From assembly GCA_945920825.1 (NCBI GenBank), contig CAMEKD010000004.1:1-37176 (forward strand): a DNA stretch of 37,176 bases, given 5' to 3'. Positions 24,780-36,948 of the stretch are shown in pieces (position 1 is the stretch's first letter; the number at the start of each line of letters is the position of its first letter). The DNA is from an uncultured Anaeroplasma sp. (GTDB taxonomy: Bacteria; Bacillota_I; Bacilli_A; Acholeplasmatales; Anaeroplasmataceae). The position numbers and the translations under genes are program-made. The notes below the pieces were generated by a model. That model was not told the origin of the DNA. It searched no databases and saw only the letters and a program-made list of their open reading frames with translations.

Positions 24780-27038
24780 TTATAATGAAGAAGCTTGGTA
24801 ATCATAACCAATCGCATCAGCAATCATCTTAAATGCATCTTCATCAAAGATGCTCTTTAAGCCAGCCTTTTCAAGTACAGATGTGAATGTATCTGTCGCC
24901 TCATGTGGAGAATATAAGAACTTGTATGCCGTTACTGCTTTATCCCAATCCTCGCATGCATATGCATATACTTCAAGTGATGCAATTGCAGATGTAGCAT
25001 AGCTAATATAATAGCCCTGATAATTTAATAATACAATATTCACCCAATCTGTAGCTTCTGCATAATCATCAAGACCAACAGCACAACAAATTTCTGCCCA
25101 CTTTGCAACTAATGCATTATAGAATGCATTTGCATCAGCATATGAGCTCATATCCTCTGTATACGTCCACTTTTCAAGCTCATTGATTAAGTAGCCTTCA
25201 ATTACAGCACCAATCATCATATATGTCTTATATGCTAAGAATGCCTTTGTAGCGCCTAGAGAATATACATCCGTTGTAGTTAAATACTTATAGAATAGCA
25301 TCTCATTCGCCTGAGAATGAACCTCATTTAAATCCATAGAATAGAATTCACTATCTGAAGCAGTAATATGCTCATTGTAGTGACCAAATTCATGAATGAA
25401 TGTACCAATTTCTTGGCAAGAAGGTCCTAAGAACATAAGTGGAGTGTCATCGGCAAAACTCCAAACATAACCAGTTACATTATCGTTTTCTGTTGCAGAA
25501 TACCAATAATTACCACTTGTGAAATAATATTTGAAGTTTTGACCCATTTCATCACCGATTACATTTTCAGCATAATCCGCGATATACTCAAAGTATTTAC
25601 CATAGAAGTCATCTTCAATTAATCCCCATAAGCCATAATAATATTCTTCATATAATTCAGACTCAGGATTTTGTGCTAAATCAGCCTTAGCCTCTGCCTT
25701 ATATGTTAAGAAATCACCAAGGGCATCCATCTGAGCTGGAATTAAATATGTAGCAATATAATCCGCTAATGCATCCGTATCTTGAACACTATATTCTCTA
25801 CCATATTGATTCTCATATGCATAAGTTAAATAATCCTCATAGCCTAAAACATTAGCATAAGCCTTTGCACTTTTGAAGAAGGAATATAATGCTTCTGCAG
25901 CTGTAGATTCACCAGAATAATAAGAGCTTAATGCTTGGCTCATATTCTTATCATATTCATTTAGCTGTTCTGTTGTCTCTGGATTTAAGCTTTGAACATA
26001 TGCATCTACTGCTTCTTCATTTAATGTTCCATCAGCATTCTTATACTCATCATATTGTAAATAATAGTATTCCTTATAAATAGACTTATATGCAGCAAGA
26101 TCAATCTTCTCATCAAGTAGTCCAAAATCATTGATTAATGCTTCAAGCTCATCTGCAAGATCATAAGATTCAGATGTGTTATCTCTATCCGATAAAATCT
26201 TTGCGATACGATATTGATCCACTAAATAATAGTACTGATCACAGAATGTGTTATATAATTCAACAATTTCTTCATTTGTAGCTTCTTCAGCCAGAATTGC
26301 ATCTAATACATCCTCTCCATACTTTAACTGTTGATTCTCTGTACCTGACTCATATAGAACCGTAAGCTCTTTACCATCAACATCGACAGGTCCAATTTCA
26401 TAAAGGTGATTTAATGCTTCAATCTTTGAAACATTAAGCTTAGAATCATTGTACTTTAAAGTGAATTTTGCACCAGCAGAAAGTCCTTCTAGCTCTGCAA
26501 AATTAACATCTAAACCAGTAAATACTACTTTTTTATCAGCAGTGATACAAGTCTTACCAGATTCTACTTCCTCAACCCATTTAACAAATGGAATGTCTAT
26601 AGCCTCACCACCATTAAATTGAGTGGTTAATAAATATTCATAACCATAAGCTTGATGGAAGTCTTTCGCTTGAATGCTTGTTATAGCATTGCCATTTTCA
26701 TCAATAGAAATGATTTCTCCTTCCATTACAAGATAATCCAAAAGTAAATTGGATAATTCAACAGGATTCTTATCTTCATCATAATAAGTACCATCCTCTT
26801 TATCCTTAGTGTAATAAGCTAAATTCCCCTTAGTAGAATATGTTGGATCAACTGCCTCATGATAGGTATAAGTTTCTACTGGTGCAGTAGATGTTTCTAC
26901 TGGCTTATCTGTTTTAGTTGGTGCAGGTATAATAGTTTCCGTTTCTTTAGTTGTTGAAGTCTCTATATCCTCTCCACAGGATGCTAAGGTTAATCCTGTA
27001 AGAAGAGTCATACCTAAGACTAGAAATTTCTTTTTCAT
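24780..27038 (-). CDS. Lipoprotein zinc metallopeptidase, M3/oligoendopeptidase-like
   Basis: Lipobox 'LTLASC'; 'TFIHEFGHYNEH' HExxH motif in a mostly helical C-terminal region. Confidence 0.78.
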   Translation of the reverse strand: MKKKFLVLGMTLLTGLTLASCGEDIETSTTKETETIIPAPTKTDKPVETSTAPVETYTYHEAVDPTYSTKGNLAYYTKDKEDGTYYDEDKNPVELSNLLLDYLVMEGEIISIDENGNAITSIQAKDFHQAYGYEYLLTTQFNGGEAIDIPFVKWVEEVESGKTCITADKKVVFTGLDVNFAELEGLSAGAKFTLKYNDSKLNVSKIEALNHLYEIGPVDVDGKELTVLYESGTENQQLKYGEDVLDAILAEEATNEEIVELYNTFCDQYYYLVDQYRIAKILSDRDNTSESYDLADELEALINDFGLLDEKIDLAAYKSIYKEYYYLQYDEYKNADGTLNEEAVDAYVQSLNPETTEQLNEYDKNMSQALSSYYSGESTAAEALYSFFKSAKAYANVLGYEDYLTYAYENQYGREYSVQDTDALADYIATYLIPAQMDALGDFLTYKAEAKADLAQNPESELYEEYYYGLWGLIEDDFYGKYFEYIADYAENVIGDEMGQNFKYYFTSGNYWYSATENDNVTGYVWSFADDTPLMFLGPSCQEIGTFIHEFGHYNEHITASDSEFYSMDLNEVHSQANEMLFYKYLTTTDVYSLGATKAFLAYKTYMMIGAVIEGYLINELEKWTYTEDMSSYADANAFYNALVAKWAEICCAVGLDDYAEATDWVNIVLLNYQGYYISYATSAIASLEVYAYACEDWDKAVTAYKFLYSPHEATDTFTSVLEKAGLKSIFDEDAFKMIADAIGYDYQASSL

Positions 27039-29340: not shown

Positions 29341-30081
29341 CTAAATTCTTTTCGATAGAGTTACACAAATTCTTCCACTTTTGGAATTTCCACCTATTTT
29401 ATTTACGTATACTCTACCCTTATGTCTTACGCTAATTAAATCCTTTTCTTTGCATATATGAGAAGGATTTTGATTCATGATATGGTTAATAAATACTTCT
29501 CCACGCTCTAAATATTCTAAAGCTTCACTTCTAGATAAATTATATGCGGATGAGATAATTACATCTAATCTTAGGCTAGATAGAAAATGTAATTTATCCT
29601 CATATTTAATTCTATTATGAATTTCATTATGAACTTCCTTTAATGTAATAGGTGCCTTACCTACAGAGGTAAATTCTCTAAGTAAGAATTTAGATATTTC
29701 ATCTGTTGCAGCAAAATATGCATTCTTATCCTCATCTATTACAATATCTCCTATAGCCTCTCTTTTAATCCCTAAACCCATTAAAGCACCTAGAATACTT
29801 CTATGATATAATTCATAATATTTTTTATTATATTGGATTTCAAAAATGCGAATTTTGAAATCCTCTTTTTTTATATCATATAAAGATAAGATACATCTTT
29901 TTCTATCTGCATCTATAATACCACCATAAAAGGAGACCTGTATATCACTTAAATATTTTACTTTAGCCTCGATTACACCTATTTCACTATCGTCTAAAAA
30001 GGGAAGTAAAACAACTCCACCCTCATATACTCTACTTATAGAAGAATCAACTCTTCTTTTAAAGCTATCTAATCCTTCCAT
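29341..30081 (-). CDS. ylmH: YlmH-family S4 RNA-binding protein
   Basis: 'FYGGIIDADRKRCIL', S4 domain 'LRLDVIISSAYNLSRSEALEYLERGEVFIN'. Confidence 0.92.
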   Translation of the reverse strand: MEGLDSFKRRVDSSISRVYEGGVVLLPFLDDSEIGVIEAKVKYLSDIQVSFYGGIIDADRKRCILSLYDIKKEDFKIRIFEIQYNKKYYELYHRSILGALMGLGIKREAIGDIVIDEDKNAYFAATDEISKFLLREFTSVGKAPITLKEVHNEIHNRIKYEDKLHFLSSLRLDVIISSAYNLSRSEALEYLERGEVFINHIMNQNPSHICKEKDLISVRHKGRVYVNKIGGNSKSGRICVTLSKRI

Positions 30082-30707
30082 AGAATTCTACCTAATCTTA
30101 TATGAGTTGCAGAAGCCTCTAATGCTTCCTTATAATCATCACTCATACCCATGGATAAATATGGAATTTTAATTTTATATTTTTCCTCTAATCGATCTCT
30201 TAAATCTCTTAATCTTTCAAATTGATTTTTGATATCAAGATGGGTATCTCCCTTAATTGCCATCATCATAAGACCAACAATTTTTACCTTTGGGTATAAG
30301 AATACCTCCTCCATGAAGGAATCAATATCCATATAAGGAACTCCATTCTTAGACTCCTCAAGGTTAATCGATACTTCAATAAAGCAATTTAGAGGTGTAT
30401 TTCTTTCTTTTTCGATAATTTTCGCAAGCTCAATGGAATCTAGCGAATGTAAATAATCGATTTTATCGATTACCTTTTTCGCTTTATTTCTTTGTAGATG
30501 CCCAATGAAATGCCAGGTTGGATTTATATCCTTAAGATTCTCATATTTTTCCAAGAAGGCCTCTACTCTATTTTCGCCAAAATTTGTAACACCATTTTGA
30601 TATAATTCTCTCATTAAATCTGCCCCAACATACTTTGTTGCGGCAACAACGGTAACATATTCTGGTATTGTATTTAAAAAATCATGAATATCTTCTCTTA
30701 AATGCAT
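30069..30707 (-). CDS. yggS: YggS/YlmE-family PLP-binding homeostasis protein
   Basis: 'VVAATKYVGADLMRELYQNGVTNFGENRVEAFLEK', 'WHFIGHLQRNKAKKVI', 'LSMGMSDDYKEALEASATHIRLGRILW'. Confidence 0.95.
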   Translation of the reverse strand: MHLREDIHDFLNTIPEYVTVVAATKYVGADLMRELYQNGVTNFGENRVEAFLEKYENLKDINPTWHFIGHLQRNKAKKVIDKIDYLHSLDSIELAKIIEKERNTPLNCFIEVSINLEESKNGVPYMDIDSFMEEVFLYPKVKIVGLMMMAIKGDTHLDIKNQFERLRDLRDRLEEKYKIKIPYLSMGMSDDYKEALEASATHIRLGRILWKD

Positions 30708-30742
30708 ACTATCGCCTCAATCCGTATTATACTAAAATTCTT

Positions 30743-30866
30743 TAAAAAAAGAAATAAGGAACAGTGGGAGCCGTTCCTTATTCCTTAAATTGGGAGAGTT
30801 ATAGTTTGCTTATGACAGTCATCATATTCTAGGGAGTATACATGACAACCTATTTCATAAGCACTT
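30743..30866 (-). ncRNA. Predicted orphan small regulatory RNA with three CTCCC motifs (LhrC-like layout)
   Basis: Extended -10 TGTTATATA (about 30878-30870); 8-bp outer stem GCTTATGA (30862-30855)/TCATAAGC (30815-30808) with inner GTCAT/ATGAC stem; CTCCC at 30836-30832 (loop), 30796-30792 (linker) and 30770-30766 (terminator loop); terminator stem 30780-30773/30762-30755 and T-run TTATTTCTTTTTTT. No ORF on this strand. Confidence 0.55.
30753..30782 (-). terminator. Rho-independent terminator AATAAGGAAC-GGCTCCCACT-GTTCCTTATT-TCTTTTTTT
   Basis: 10-bp perfect stem, 10-nt loop, strong T-run on the minus strand. Confidence 0.88.
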
Positions 30867-30923
30867 ATAGTATATAACAAAATAACGAATTTAAACAATC
30901 ATTTTTTTCGAAAACGATTACTT

Positions 30924-32090
30924 TTAGGCAAAAGATGAAAATTGTCTAACGACGGGAGCTTGATACTGTGTTGACTCCTTAAAACTTTCATCATAATCAT
31001 TCCTAGAAGAGCATGGAAGGTTACCTGCAGACTCACAGCCAAAACGGATTCCAAACCCATCATCATAATTTAAATACTCTTGAAAATCATTGTAGTGATT
31101 ATAGGTATAGAATACATATCTATTATCCATTTTAGTTACCTTAGGATCACTTACAAAGACAAACCTACAAATTCCTCTATTAATATATTCTCCATCGTTG
31201 TATTTGTCTAGAGTTTGTTCACTTCTGTTATAGAATTGATATTTGTAATTTCCCTTTGTTCCAAAATCTGTTTCTGTATATTGAATACTTCCTCTTCCCA
31301 TAATATTAGGAAGTAGTGGTTCATAAGGATATTTTGTTGTATCCCCTGAGAAATTTTGCTTATTTACTCTTGCATATTCTCCCCACTTTGCAAGAGCTTC
31401 ACTCCGGTTTACACTTGATGTACCATAATTACTATTCGCTGGTAATGAACCAAAAGCTAAAAGGTATGCAGAAACATCATTTAAGGAAACATAGCCACAT
31501 CCATAATAAATACATCTTGCAGAGCCTCTTGTGTTTGGCATATAGCCTATATAATTTCCCTCTGTATCTAATATATAAGTGCCACTAGATGACCTAACAT
31601 ATTTATCATCCTCCATAATGCCTAAATTCTTTGGCATATAATCCTCGGGTGTAATATCTCCTGCAATAAATCCATGAAGTGCTCTATAATAGGCATCCTC
31701 ATAGGTAATAGCCACATTAAAATTTCTATAAAATTCAGAATAATCTACATCTATATAAGGATCATCTATCTCCTTAGGTTCATAAAAAATAGCAGAAATA
31801 TCATTTCCATATTTTGTCAAATCAATTCCATAAGGGTTAGAATCTCCTGCATTATAAATGACTTCTCCACTACCAAATGCGACATCTATAAATTCACTAA
31901 AGGTATACTCCTTATTTTCTGGAAAAATGGTTGTTGGGGCTATTGTTTCTGTCTCAGTTTCTTGTGAATCAGTTATAGTATCTACTAAAGGTTCACTTCC
32001 ACTTTCAACCGTAATATCCTTCATCAAAGGTCCACACGAACTTAGAGTGAAGAATAGAAGGAATGGTGCAATACAAATTTTTTTATTCAT
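30924..32090 (-). CDS. Lipoprotein with C-terminal barnase-like (microbial ribonuclease N1/T1 superfamily) domain
   Basis: Lipobox 'FTLSSC'. 'VSLNDVSAYLLAFGSLPAN...NRSEALAKWG' aligns by eye with barnase 'VADYLQTYHKLPDNYITKSEAQALGW'; 'YTETDFG', 'RFVFVSD', 'VFYTYNHYNDFQEY' align with the Glu73, Arg87 and His102 segments of barnase. Confidence 0.72.
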   Translation of the reverse strand: MNKKICIAPFLLFFTLSSCGPLMKDITVESGSEPLVDTITDSQETETETIAPTTIFPENKEYTFSEFIDVAFGSGEVIYNAGDSNPYGIDLTKYGNDISAIFYEPKEIDDPYIDVDYSEFYRNFNVAITYEDAYYRALHGFIAGDITPEDYMPKNLGIMEDDKYVRSSSGTYILDTEGNYIGYMPNTRGSARCIYYGCGYVSLNDVSAYLLAFGSLPANSNYGTSSVNRSEALAKWGEYARVNKQNFSGDTTKYPYEPLLPNIMGRGSIQYTETDFGTKGNYKYQFYNRSEQTLDKYNDGEYINRGICRFVFVSDPKVTKMDNRYVFYTYNHYNDFQEYLNYDDGFGIRFGCESAGNLPCSSRNDYDESFKESTQYQAPVVRQFSSFA

Positions 32091-34111: not shown

Positions 34112-35434
34112 TTATTCTATTACAACACCCTGTTCAACGTAAGTCTTAGAAGAATCTGGAGTTGCAGAAACATTAACATCGCCATCATACTTGAAGTTTA
34201 ATTCAAAGGATAATGAACCCTCTACTTCTTCAAATGGTAATGTTGGAATTTCTGGGGTAGTAACATAGCCACCGATAATACCAGAACCTAAACCAGATGA
34301 TACGACTGAAGCAAGAGTATAAATCTTATCTAATGCATCCGTTGAAACATGAACAGATACGAATCTACCATGAACTACATCTACTGTAACAGATGCCTTA
34401 AATAATGTCTTATCACCAGAGAATACTAATCCAATTGCAGCACTAAATTCAGGAGCAAGCTTTTTAGCAACCTCCTTAACTTCAGGTTCAGTAACCTCAA
34501 CCTCAAATGTTACATTACTATTAGAAACATTAGAAACCTTAACGCCTAATGCCTCAACAACATCAACTAATGTCTTATATTCATCAGACTCATAGAACGC
34601 TGCATCAAAATTTGGCATTTCGGGTAAATCGAAATCCTCAAAGCCAGGAATATTTTCCTTAGCATAAGTAACGAAATCAGCTAAAGACTTTGTTTGATAT
34701 GCATTTAATGCAGTTGAAACAACAGGAGCCATATCATAATAAGGAATTGCACTCTTGATATATTTCTCTATATTTGTTTGTGTATCTGAGCTTATTAATT
34801 GTGCAATCTCTTCAGGTATTTTTGCATTAACCTCACCATAAGCATATCCATCATTATATAAGAATGCCTTAACATCAGCAGAAACAGCCTTACCATCAGC
34901 TGCCTTAAACATATCTTGTATTGCTTTTATTTCCTCATCTGTAAGGTCAGCAAATGCCTTATTGGTTGTATCTACACCGAAATTCTTAAATTGAACATCC
35001 CCATGTGCAGTTACTAATGCGCCTAGGTTCTGCTTTAATAAATCTGTTGCAGCCTTAACATCGGCAGAAGCATAAGAACCATCCTCATTTGGAGTATAAG
35101 CAGCGTAAGTCGCAGTACCAATACTTGCACCTGCACTCGCATTCGCATTTGCAACAATAGTACCAGTAACACCATTAGTTTCAACAGTTACATTTCCATT
35201 AACCTTAGCATCAACACCAACTGCATAAAGCTTACCTTCAGTTTCCTGAGTGCTACTGTTTGCAGCTAATACGATAGCCTTAGATACAGCCTCAGAATCC
35301 TCAGTTGCAGCAATCTTATAAGAATTACCATCTAAATCTTTAACATCAACCTCACTAGAACCACAGGATGCTAATGCTAATACAGATACTGCTAAGCCAG
35401 CAAGAGCTCCAGTTCTTAAAAATACTTTTTTCAT
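34112..35434 (-). CDS. Uncharacterized lipoprotein, paralogue A
   Basis: Lipobox 'LALASC'; similar along its length to the neighbouring ORF 35605..36948. Confidence 0.8.
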   Translation of the reverse strand: MKKVFLRTGALAGLAVSVLALASCGSSEVDVKDLDGNSYKIAATEDSEAVSKAIVLAANSSTQETEGKLYAVGVDAKVNGNVTVETNGVTGTIVANANASAGASIGTATYAAYTPNEDGSYASADVKAATDLLKQNLGALVTAHGDVQFKNFGVDTTNKAFADLTDEEIKAIQDMFKAADGKAVSADVKAFLYNDGYAYGEVNAKIPEEIAQLISSDTQTNIEKYIKSAIPYYDMAPVVSTALNAYQTKSLADFVTYAKENIPGFEDFDLPEMPNFDAAFYESDEYKTLVDVVEALGVKVSNVSNSNVTFEVEVTEPEVKEVAKKLAPEFSAAIGLVFSGDKTLFKASVTVDVVHGRFVSVHVSTDALDKIYTLASVVSSGLGSGIIGGYVTTPEIPTLPFEEVEGSLSFELNFKYDGDVNVSATPDSSKTYVEQGVVIE

Positions 35435-35604: not shown

Positions 35605-36948
35605 TTATAGATATTCTTTAACCTCATATTCAATGCCTTCTTTAGGCTCTGCAACTGCGTTTACATCAGCGTCATATTTAACATCAATTGTTAATGAAAT
35701 TGAACCCTTAACGCTATCTATAGGTAATACTGCATCCTCAGGCATATATAATGCAGCAACTACTAATGCAACGCTACCAATGGTCTCAATTTCATCTATA
35801 GAGATTTCAAAATGATTTAATCTTGCCTTTGCTAAATCAACAGTTAATGCAATCTTTACTAAGGATTCATCATTAGGAAGTAATGAATTAACTACTGTAG
35901 CAATACTATCCTGACCAATTAGCTTTAAGAAGTTCTTTACCTTAGCACCAGTAATATCGAATGACACTGTAGCAACGCCATCGTTAATCTCACTAATTTC
36001 AATTCCTAATGTTTCAACAAGGGAAACAATCCTTTGGTATTCTTCGGATTCAAAGAATTCAGCATTTACCATAGATAAATCAATAGGTGCTAATTTAATC
36101 TTAGCATTCTCATCAAATTCCATCATTTCTACATACTTATTATAGAAATTAATTAAAGATGAATTCTGATAATCACTAAGTGCTGTTGTAACCATTGGAG
36201 CAATATCTGTAAATATACCCTCAGTCTTAGGTGTATACATAATATCACTTTCATCTTTTGAACTTATTGCTTCAGGAATATGTGCAAAGAATTCACCGTA
36301 TGCAGTATTTTCCTTAATGAATACACGAATATCTGCATCAATCTTGTCCTTAGATAAAGCTAAAGCTTGTTTCTTAGCCTGATCAAGAAGAGTTGGATCC
36401 TCAGTGAAGATTGGATCCTTTTCATCAATTACAAAATCACTGAATAGAACTTCACCCTTTAAAGATGCAACTGCAGCAATATTATTTACTTCTAGAATAG
36501 CTTTATTAATTTCTTCCTCAGTTAACTCCTTTGTAACATCAAAGCCAGTATATGGTTTATCACCAATAGATGCAGCAACGCTTGCTTTTACATCTGCATC
36601 AATTGTTCCAGTAACACCATTAGCTTCAACAGATACATTTTCATTAACCTTAGCATCAAATGCAATAGCGTATGGGTTCTTCTCAGACTTTACACCATTA
36701 AGTGCAGATAATAATAATGCCTTTGTAACAACATTTGCATCCTTAGTTTCGGAAACAGTAAATACCTTGCCATCTAAATCTGTAATTTCTACAGTTTCAG
36801 GCATCTCTTCAGTTGCAGGTAAAGTCTCTGTAGTTGTAGTATTCACTACTTCTGTTGATGCCTCAGCACTCTCACCACAGGAAGCTAATACGAAAGCAGA
36901 AATTGCTAAGCCTAGGAAGGCACTAGCCTTTAATAAGTTTTTCTTCAT
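35605..36948 (-). CDS. Uncharacterized lipoprotein, paralogue B
   Basis: Lipobox 'FVLASC'; shares 'DLDGKVF..', 'DAKVNENVSVEANGVTGTIDADVKASVAASIG' and C-terminal 'GSISLTIDVKYDADVN' with paralogue A. Confidence 0.8.
   Translation of the reverse strand: MKKNLLKASAFLGLAISAFVLASCGESAEASTEVVNTTTTETLPATEEMPETVEITDLDGKVFTVSETKDANVVTKALLLSALNGVKSEKNPYAIAFDAKVNENVSVEANGVTGTIDADVKASVAASIGDKPYTGFDVTKELTEEEINKAILEVNNIAAVASLKGEVLFSDFVIDEKDPIFTEDPTLLDQAKKQALALSKDKIDADIRVFIKENTAYGEFFAHIPEAISSKDESDIMYTPKTEGIFTDIAPMVTTALSDYQNSSLINFYNKYVEMMEFDENAKIKLAPIDLSMVNAEFFESEEYQRIVSLVETLGIEISEINDGVATVSFDITGAKVKNFLKLIGQDSIATVVNSLLPNDESLVKIALTVDLAKARLNHFEISIDEIETIGSVALVVAALYMPEDAVLPIDSVKGSISLTIDVKYDADVNAVAEPKEGIEYEVKEYL

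Follow-up and report, generated by a model that had tools for sequence, protein, structure and literature searches.

A conserved family of small RNAs with unpaired CUCCC motifs in Anaeroplasma and its relatives, likely controlled by a two-component system

Background

Several small regulatory RNAs (sRNAs) of low-GC Gram-positive bacteria, RsaE and FsrA among them, present unpaired UCCC motifs to the Shine-Dalgarno regions of messenger RNAs (PMC4132741). The LhrC family of Listeria monocytogenes (LhrC1-5, Rli22 and Rli33-1) is a multicopy group of this type, with members of 105-121 nucleotides (nt) that are built of a stem-loop A, a single-stranded stretch and a terminator; UCCC motifs lie in loop A and in the stretch, and LhrC1-5 carry a third in the terminator loop (PMC8079631). 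The UCCC motifs of LhrC make the first contact with GGGAG of lapB, and LhrC requires the two-component system LisRK (PMC4132741). In Streptococcus, the csRNAs of the CiaRH regulon have anti-Shine-Dalgarno and anti-AUG sequences in their linker and a direct-repeat CiaR box (PMC3091779). Here we describe a predicted sRNA gene on the minus strand, at 30743-30864, of a 37,176-nt stretch of DNA from an uncultured Anaeroplasma sp. (contig CAMEKD010000004.1; the whole stretch is called the window), whose RNA matches the LhrC layout point for point, including the motif in the terminator loop.

Comparison with related genomes places this gene in a multicopy family of gut-dwelling Anaeroplasma and related bacteria that is often found beside genes for a two-component system. 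We favour, with reasonable though incomplete confidence, a reading in which the family consists of UCCC-type antisense sRNAs that are under two-component control and would block translation by base-pairing at the starts of their target mRNAs.

The sRNA gene of the window

Covariance modelling, folding and comparison with homologues together identify the interval 30743-30864 as a gene for a small RNA of a multicopy family, with a predicted transcript of ~120 nt. An earlier note on this DNA had proposed a new sRNA here, and its sequence, strand and coordinates proved correct. The segment from 30866 to 30743 folds (RNAfold) at -39.1 kcal/mol, with z = -6.3 relative to dinucleotide shuffles, into a 5' hairpin domain (30807-30863), a 20-nt single-stranded linker and a terminator. 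Within the hairpin domain an outer helix (30863-30855 with 30815-30807) and an inner helix (30850-30840 with 30827-30817) close a loop at 30839-30828. As had been claimed, all three CUCCC motifs are largely or wholly unpaired in this fold: the first in the hairpin loop (30832-30836; unpaired probability 0.85), the second in the linker as part of CUCUCCC (30792-30796; 1.00) and the third in the terminator loop (30766-30770; 1.00). Nowhere else in the whole window, on either strand, do three CTCCC lie within 120 nt.

The intrinsic terminator (30744-30786), with a 16-base-pair (bp) stem and a U run, is the sole terminator called within 30.3-31.3 kb. At the other end, the -10 element is TATACT (30869-30874), which aligns with TATACT or TATAAT at the corresponding site of other copies; it was missed by a simple sigma-70 scan because it has no -35, and a clear -35 is wanting in most family members too. 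The proposal that the unit has its own promoter and terminator is borne out by comparison, with the -10 refined to this hexamer.

Distribution and conservation of the family

A nucleotide search of related genomes returned numerous matches to the region 30815-30786, frequently two or more in a single genome, and by this search and the comparison of copies conservation in the family is highest in the core CAUAAGCAAACUAUAACUCUCCCAAUUU (30787-30814). Named matches were Acholeplasmatales/Anaeroplasma records, including Anaeroplasma bactoclasticum ATCC 27112, a cultured type strain with two sRNA copies, one of which (G020:C2) is the nearest homologue of the window copy, with 91% identity over 141 nt. 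A first covariance model (R1), built from nine copies with the window copy excluded, matched 74 places, one to four per genome, in 43 of the 56 genomes of the family that holds A. bactoclasticum (the Anaeroplasma family), and a second (R2) was built from 67 aligned matches, the window copy included. The match of the window copy spans 30866-30786 and scores 41.8 bits with R1 and 54.4 bits with R2. Beyond this family R1 had no match in 95 other genomes of the order and R2 none in a class-wide sample of 248 genomes, under stricter filters with which weak matches are lost.

The typical member has two 5' hairpins, P1 (GUCUU...AAGAC) and P2 (AUCUAUC...GAUAGAU, with the loop (U)CUCCCUA), followed by the single-stranded ACUUUUUUCAUAAGCAAACUAUAACUCUCCCAAUU and a terminator of variable sequence. 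Unlike most members, the window copy has a single 5' hairpin domain; it is a derived form with a reduced P1, and its 5' arm, GCUUAUG, forms pairs with CAUAAGC instead. Two-sided changes occur in all 12 pairs of P1 and P2. Two-sided covariation cells number 63, against 7.7 in shuffles (0 of 500 reach 63) and 7-13 when partners are slid, counts that lean towards the model because the alignment was fitted to it.

Motif counts were taken over 63 distinct copies. The 3' hairpin is present in every one, TCCC is kept in the 5' part of 59, UUUUCAUAA in 57 and the linker CUCUCCC in 55, the remainder having mostly CUCUCCG. The loop and linker motifs have mean unpaired probabilities of 0.96 and 0.91, against 0.45 over the RNA as a whole. 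The three-motif layout first described for the window therefore divides: the loop and linker motifs are family features and among its best-kept parts, while the terminator-loop CUCCC occurs in 2/63 copies, those of the window's genome and of A. bactoclasticum. Since the motifs are conserved in homologues and the base pairs covary, the reading as a new sRNA is strengthened.

No part of the window attains the gathering score of any Rfam model, and four representative loci gave nothing convincing in Rfam at E<=10, the LhrC and RsaE models suggested for checking included. In the literature searched, no conserved sRNA family had been described for this lineage. We are confident from these comparisons that this is a real, conserved sRNA family new to Rfam, for which the covariance model offers a means of annotation in genomes of the Anaeroplasma family.

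Coding alternatives were also considered. The earlier note had seen none in this interval, and the longest sense open reading frame has a median of 2 and a maximum of 22 amino acids over 66 copies, with spacing random modulo 3. On the reverse strand GGGAGAG...ATGAAAAAG resembles a gene start, but its frame is broken in most copies. We reject both a coding gene and an antisense small open reading frame.

Genomic setting and promoter control

Approximately 29 of the 66 copies lie directly upstream of a gene for an OmpR-family response regulator (Response_reg and Trans_reg_C), which is followed by one for a histidine kinase (HisKA, HATPase_c and a weak HAMP). These copies usually follow the RNA-polymerase delta gene (HARE-HTH), and this two-component locus is the family's most widespread one. 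Besides the copy described here, the window's genome carries another at such a locus (G000:C60). Many copies also carry a direct repeat, ACATAATTTC[AC]CATAAT, that ends 29 nt before the -10; its strict form was scored in 29 of the 63 distinct copies, and looser forms are visible in more. Where family genomes lack an R1 match the kinase is mostly still there, and the region before the regulator often keeps the promoter box and a degenerate sRNA (genera g2 and g5 included). Because of this retention, the two-component locus is likely to be the ancestral location, from which the other loci seem to have been copied.

OmpR-family regulators commonly bind direct repeats of ~10-bp period, CiaR and LisR offer precedents, and control of the family by the adjacent two-component system is likely. 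It could also be that the sRNAs act in trans and that the box belongs to another regulator, the linkage with the two-component genes being historical. Adjacency alone is no proof of regulation, and the box is missing from its usual place in the window copy and in some copies at two-component loci. Against this stand the 10-bp period of the repeat, typical of the OmpR family, and the retention of a box-like sequence upstream of the response regulator at three two-component loci (L272, L273 and L274) where the sRNA has seemingly decayed to a terminator remnant; we regard a purely historical linkage as unlikely.

The window copy itself is a different case. At the place of the box (30904-30920, minus strand) it reads TAATCGTTTTCGAAAAA, which has 8/17 matches by eye, and the box is not recognisable. 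Two-component control of this copy is doubtful; it has probably lost control through the box, and with the direct repeat gone its expression is probably constitutive or governed in another way.

Box sites were found in 46 of the 56 genomes, and those not associated with the sRNA are near the chance level of the reversed pattern (64). Some of these sites stand before other genes. The same box, at 29-30 nt spacing, precedes related ABC transporter genes of one type in four genomes (L328, L329, L330 and L331; the L329 transporter is assigned to ABC_tran by Pfam), and these genes are candidate members of the two-component regulon. In the window's genome a box-type promoter precedes the gene for a trypsin-like lipoprotein that contains a Listeria-Bacteroides repeat (L326:1062-2117, minus strand, contig C50), and box and spacing recur before another lipoprotein gene in genus g7 (L322). 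Downstream of box promoters at six further loci (L312, L313, L314, L316, L317 and L323) is a second probable class of non-coding RNA, which the covariance models do not detect; most of these RNAs start with (G)TGTCTTA, several have a large internal loop that contains GAAAGGAG and UUUUCUCCCAA, and they are in tandem in L316.

Proposed action and candidate targets

Read as its reverse complement, the conserved single-stranded region is AAUUGGGAGAG...GCUUAUGAAAAAAG, a GGGAG-type Shine-Dalgarno sequence and then a start codon with lysine codons. A trans-acting role in pairing with ribosome-binding sites is likely, and the analogy with the described systems predicts that mRNAs carrying GGGAG close to their start are translationally repressed by the sRNA. 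In the mechanism that we propose, the response regulator would switch on the sRNAs by binding the direct repeat that precedes the -10, probably in response to a cell-surface signal. Contact would begin between the loop or linker CUCCC and a GGGAG close to a ribosome-binding site, and could be extended by pairing of the UUUUUCAU tract with AUGAAAAA. The sRNA would then cover the ribosome-binding site and AUG in the manner of a csRNA, its own longer spacer being looped out, so that ribosomes could not start and the mRNA would be lost.

GGGAG is rare as a Shine-Dalgarno sequence (2 of 296 genes); such an sRNA would therefore be selective. A search for GGGAG-N-ATGAAAAAA gave 35 sites in 10 genomes, mostly at lipoprotein genes and none in the window's genome. 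A few strong duplexes were predicted, one of them in A. bactoclasticum (C1:155768) at -21.9 kcal/mol against a best of -18.8 kcal/mol among 295 background starts; these were preselected for TGGGAGA, and no gene recurs among them. The lipoprotein genes of the window, whose GGAG sites had been suggested for target prediction, have ordinary Shine-Dalgarno sites, and nothing marks them out.

Several of these observations weigh against antisense control of translation starts by a regulator-driven sRNA. The rarity of GGGAG is one, and TGGGAGA-N-ATG is not enriched over the reversed control. The bias towards lipoproteins among GGGAG...ATGAAAAAA genes, relative to AAGGAG controls, is not significant (16/25 vs 12/28, P = 0.17), and the target searches yielded no conserved or recurrent target. 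To these may be added the unrecognisable box of the window copy and the pairing of its CAUAAGC with the 5' arm, because of which anti-start-codon pairing would need an opened helix.

That no target class stood out would suit an RNA whose repeated CUCCC motifs and linker bind, or titrate, a regulatory protein and not mRNAs, as would the conservation of ~28 nt of linker, beyond the need of a short seed. We consider such a role quite unlikely, since the single-stranded region complements a translation start in the right order, Shine-Dalgarno sequence and then AUGAAAAA, and GGGAG is the pairing partner of the same motif in LhrC (PMC4132741).

Neighbouring genes and independence of the unit

The sRNA gene of the window lies between two genes of its own strand. 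Upstream is a lipoprotein gene (30924-32090), an open reading frame with the lipobox LSSC and no Pfam match, and downstream is a yggS-like gene (30069-30707; PF01168). Approximately 16 of the 66 copies are likewise near yggS. Eight copies in one genus follow a gene which we take, from its sequence and general knowledge, to encode acetate kinase, and a few in another genus are near an ABC transporter gene, with a convergent downstream gene. The 3' hairpin of every copy, the -10 of its own and the several unrelated neighbourhoods all support a trans-acting unit.

The hairpin, linker and terminator might instead form a cis-acting leader or attenuator that sets read-through into the response regulator gene or yggS. 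Many copies do end 25-100 nt before a gene of the same strand, and the terminator could be regulated. However, the downstream genes differ (response regulator, yggS, queT-like and a large secreted protein), they are convergent in several copies of genus g4, and tandem copies exist. In addition, TATAAT follows the terminator at many loci; in the window it lies at 30726-30731 (minus strand) and is probably a separate yggS promoter. We hold a leader to be improbable. That the RNA is no more than the 3' untranslated region or processed end of the lipoprotein mRNA, whose stop codon lies ~60 nt upstream on the same strand, is scarcely credible for a family that follows many different genes in either relative orientation and keeps a conserved -10, and here too the earlier reading of a separate unit holds.

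Two further observations concern neighbouring sequences. Just downstream of one sRNA copy, before a QueT-like gene, is a sub-threshold match to the PreQ1 riboswitch (L086:2869-2919, minus strand; 24.6 bits vs a gathering score of 39). In the window, three large lipoproteins (24780-27038, 34112-35434 and 35605-36948) have no confident Pfam family, and the last two look paralogous by eye.

Comparison with described sRNA systems

A wider proposal, which we advance tentatively and at somewhat less than even confidence, is that a dedicated circuit is ancestral to the Anaeroplasma family, relatives of the Mollicutes. In this circuit a two-component system and one repeat-type box would drive several sRNAs, of at least two structural classes that share unpaired CUCCC, and in some species an ABC transporter as well. 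If the reading of the family as two-component-controlled antisense sRNAs holds, two-component-driven UCCC sRNAs directed against ribosome-binding sites arose again in relatives of the Mollicutes, here with the sRNAs physically tied to their likely regulator, and A. bactoclasticum ATCC 27112 would provide a small system for working out signal, regulator, sRNA and targets.

The likeness to LhrC that the earlier note had drawn holds for the design, GGGAG complementarity included, and does not amount to demonstrated kinship. The RNAs described here have no covariance-model match to LhrC, and most of them have the extra 5' hairpin P1; they carry the conserved UUUUUCAU, many copies adjoin a two-component system, and the RNAs are confined to the Anaeroplasma family. 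Target searches gave no convincing set to place beside the surface-protein mRNAs at whose ribosome-binding sites LhrC pairs with GGGAG, and adjacency to the OmpR-family system together with the direct-repeat box is only suggestive of expression that depends, as for LhrC, on an envelope-stress two-component system. With RsaE and FsrA the family has unpaired UCCC in common; it differs from them in genomic setting and has no Rfam match at E<=10.

The csRNAs are alike in having, along with two stem-loops, a conserved unpaired stretch that is complementary to the Shine-Dalgarno sequence and AUG, several related copies per genome, and a response-regulator direct repeat upstream of the -10 (PMC3091779). 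The anti-Shine-Dalgarno and anti-AUG elements between the stem-loops are found in the Anaeroplasma family as CUCUCCC and UUUUCAUAA, with CAUAAGC paired in the window copy. The csRNA box, NTTAAG-N5-TTTAAG at 10 nt from the -10, was not found, the Anaeroplasma repeat being of other sequence and 29 nt away; the family also has CUCCC in its 5' hairpin loop, and the RNA sequences differ.

Because sequence kinship to LhrC and the csRNA promoter box are both wanting, we do not file these RNAs as members of either group; the best reading, by analogy, is that they work like LhrC and the csRNAs. Convergence is the simplest account of the likeness to both, and the proposed circuit, if real, would have reached the design of LisRK-LhrC and CiaRH-csRNA by independent evolution.
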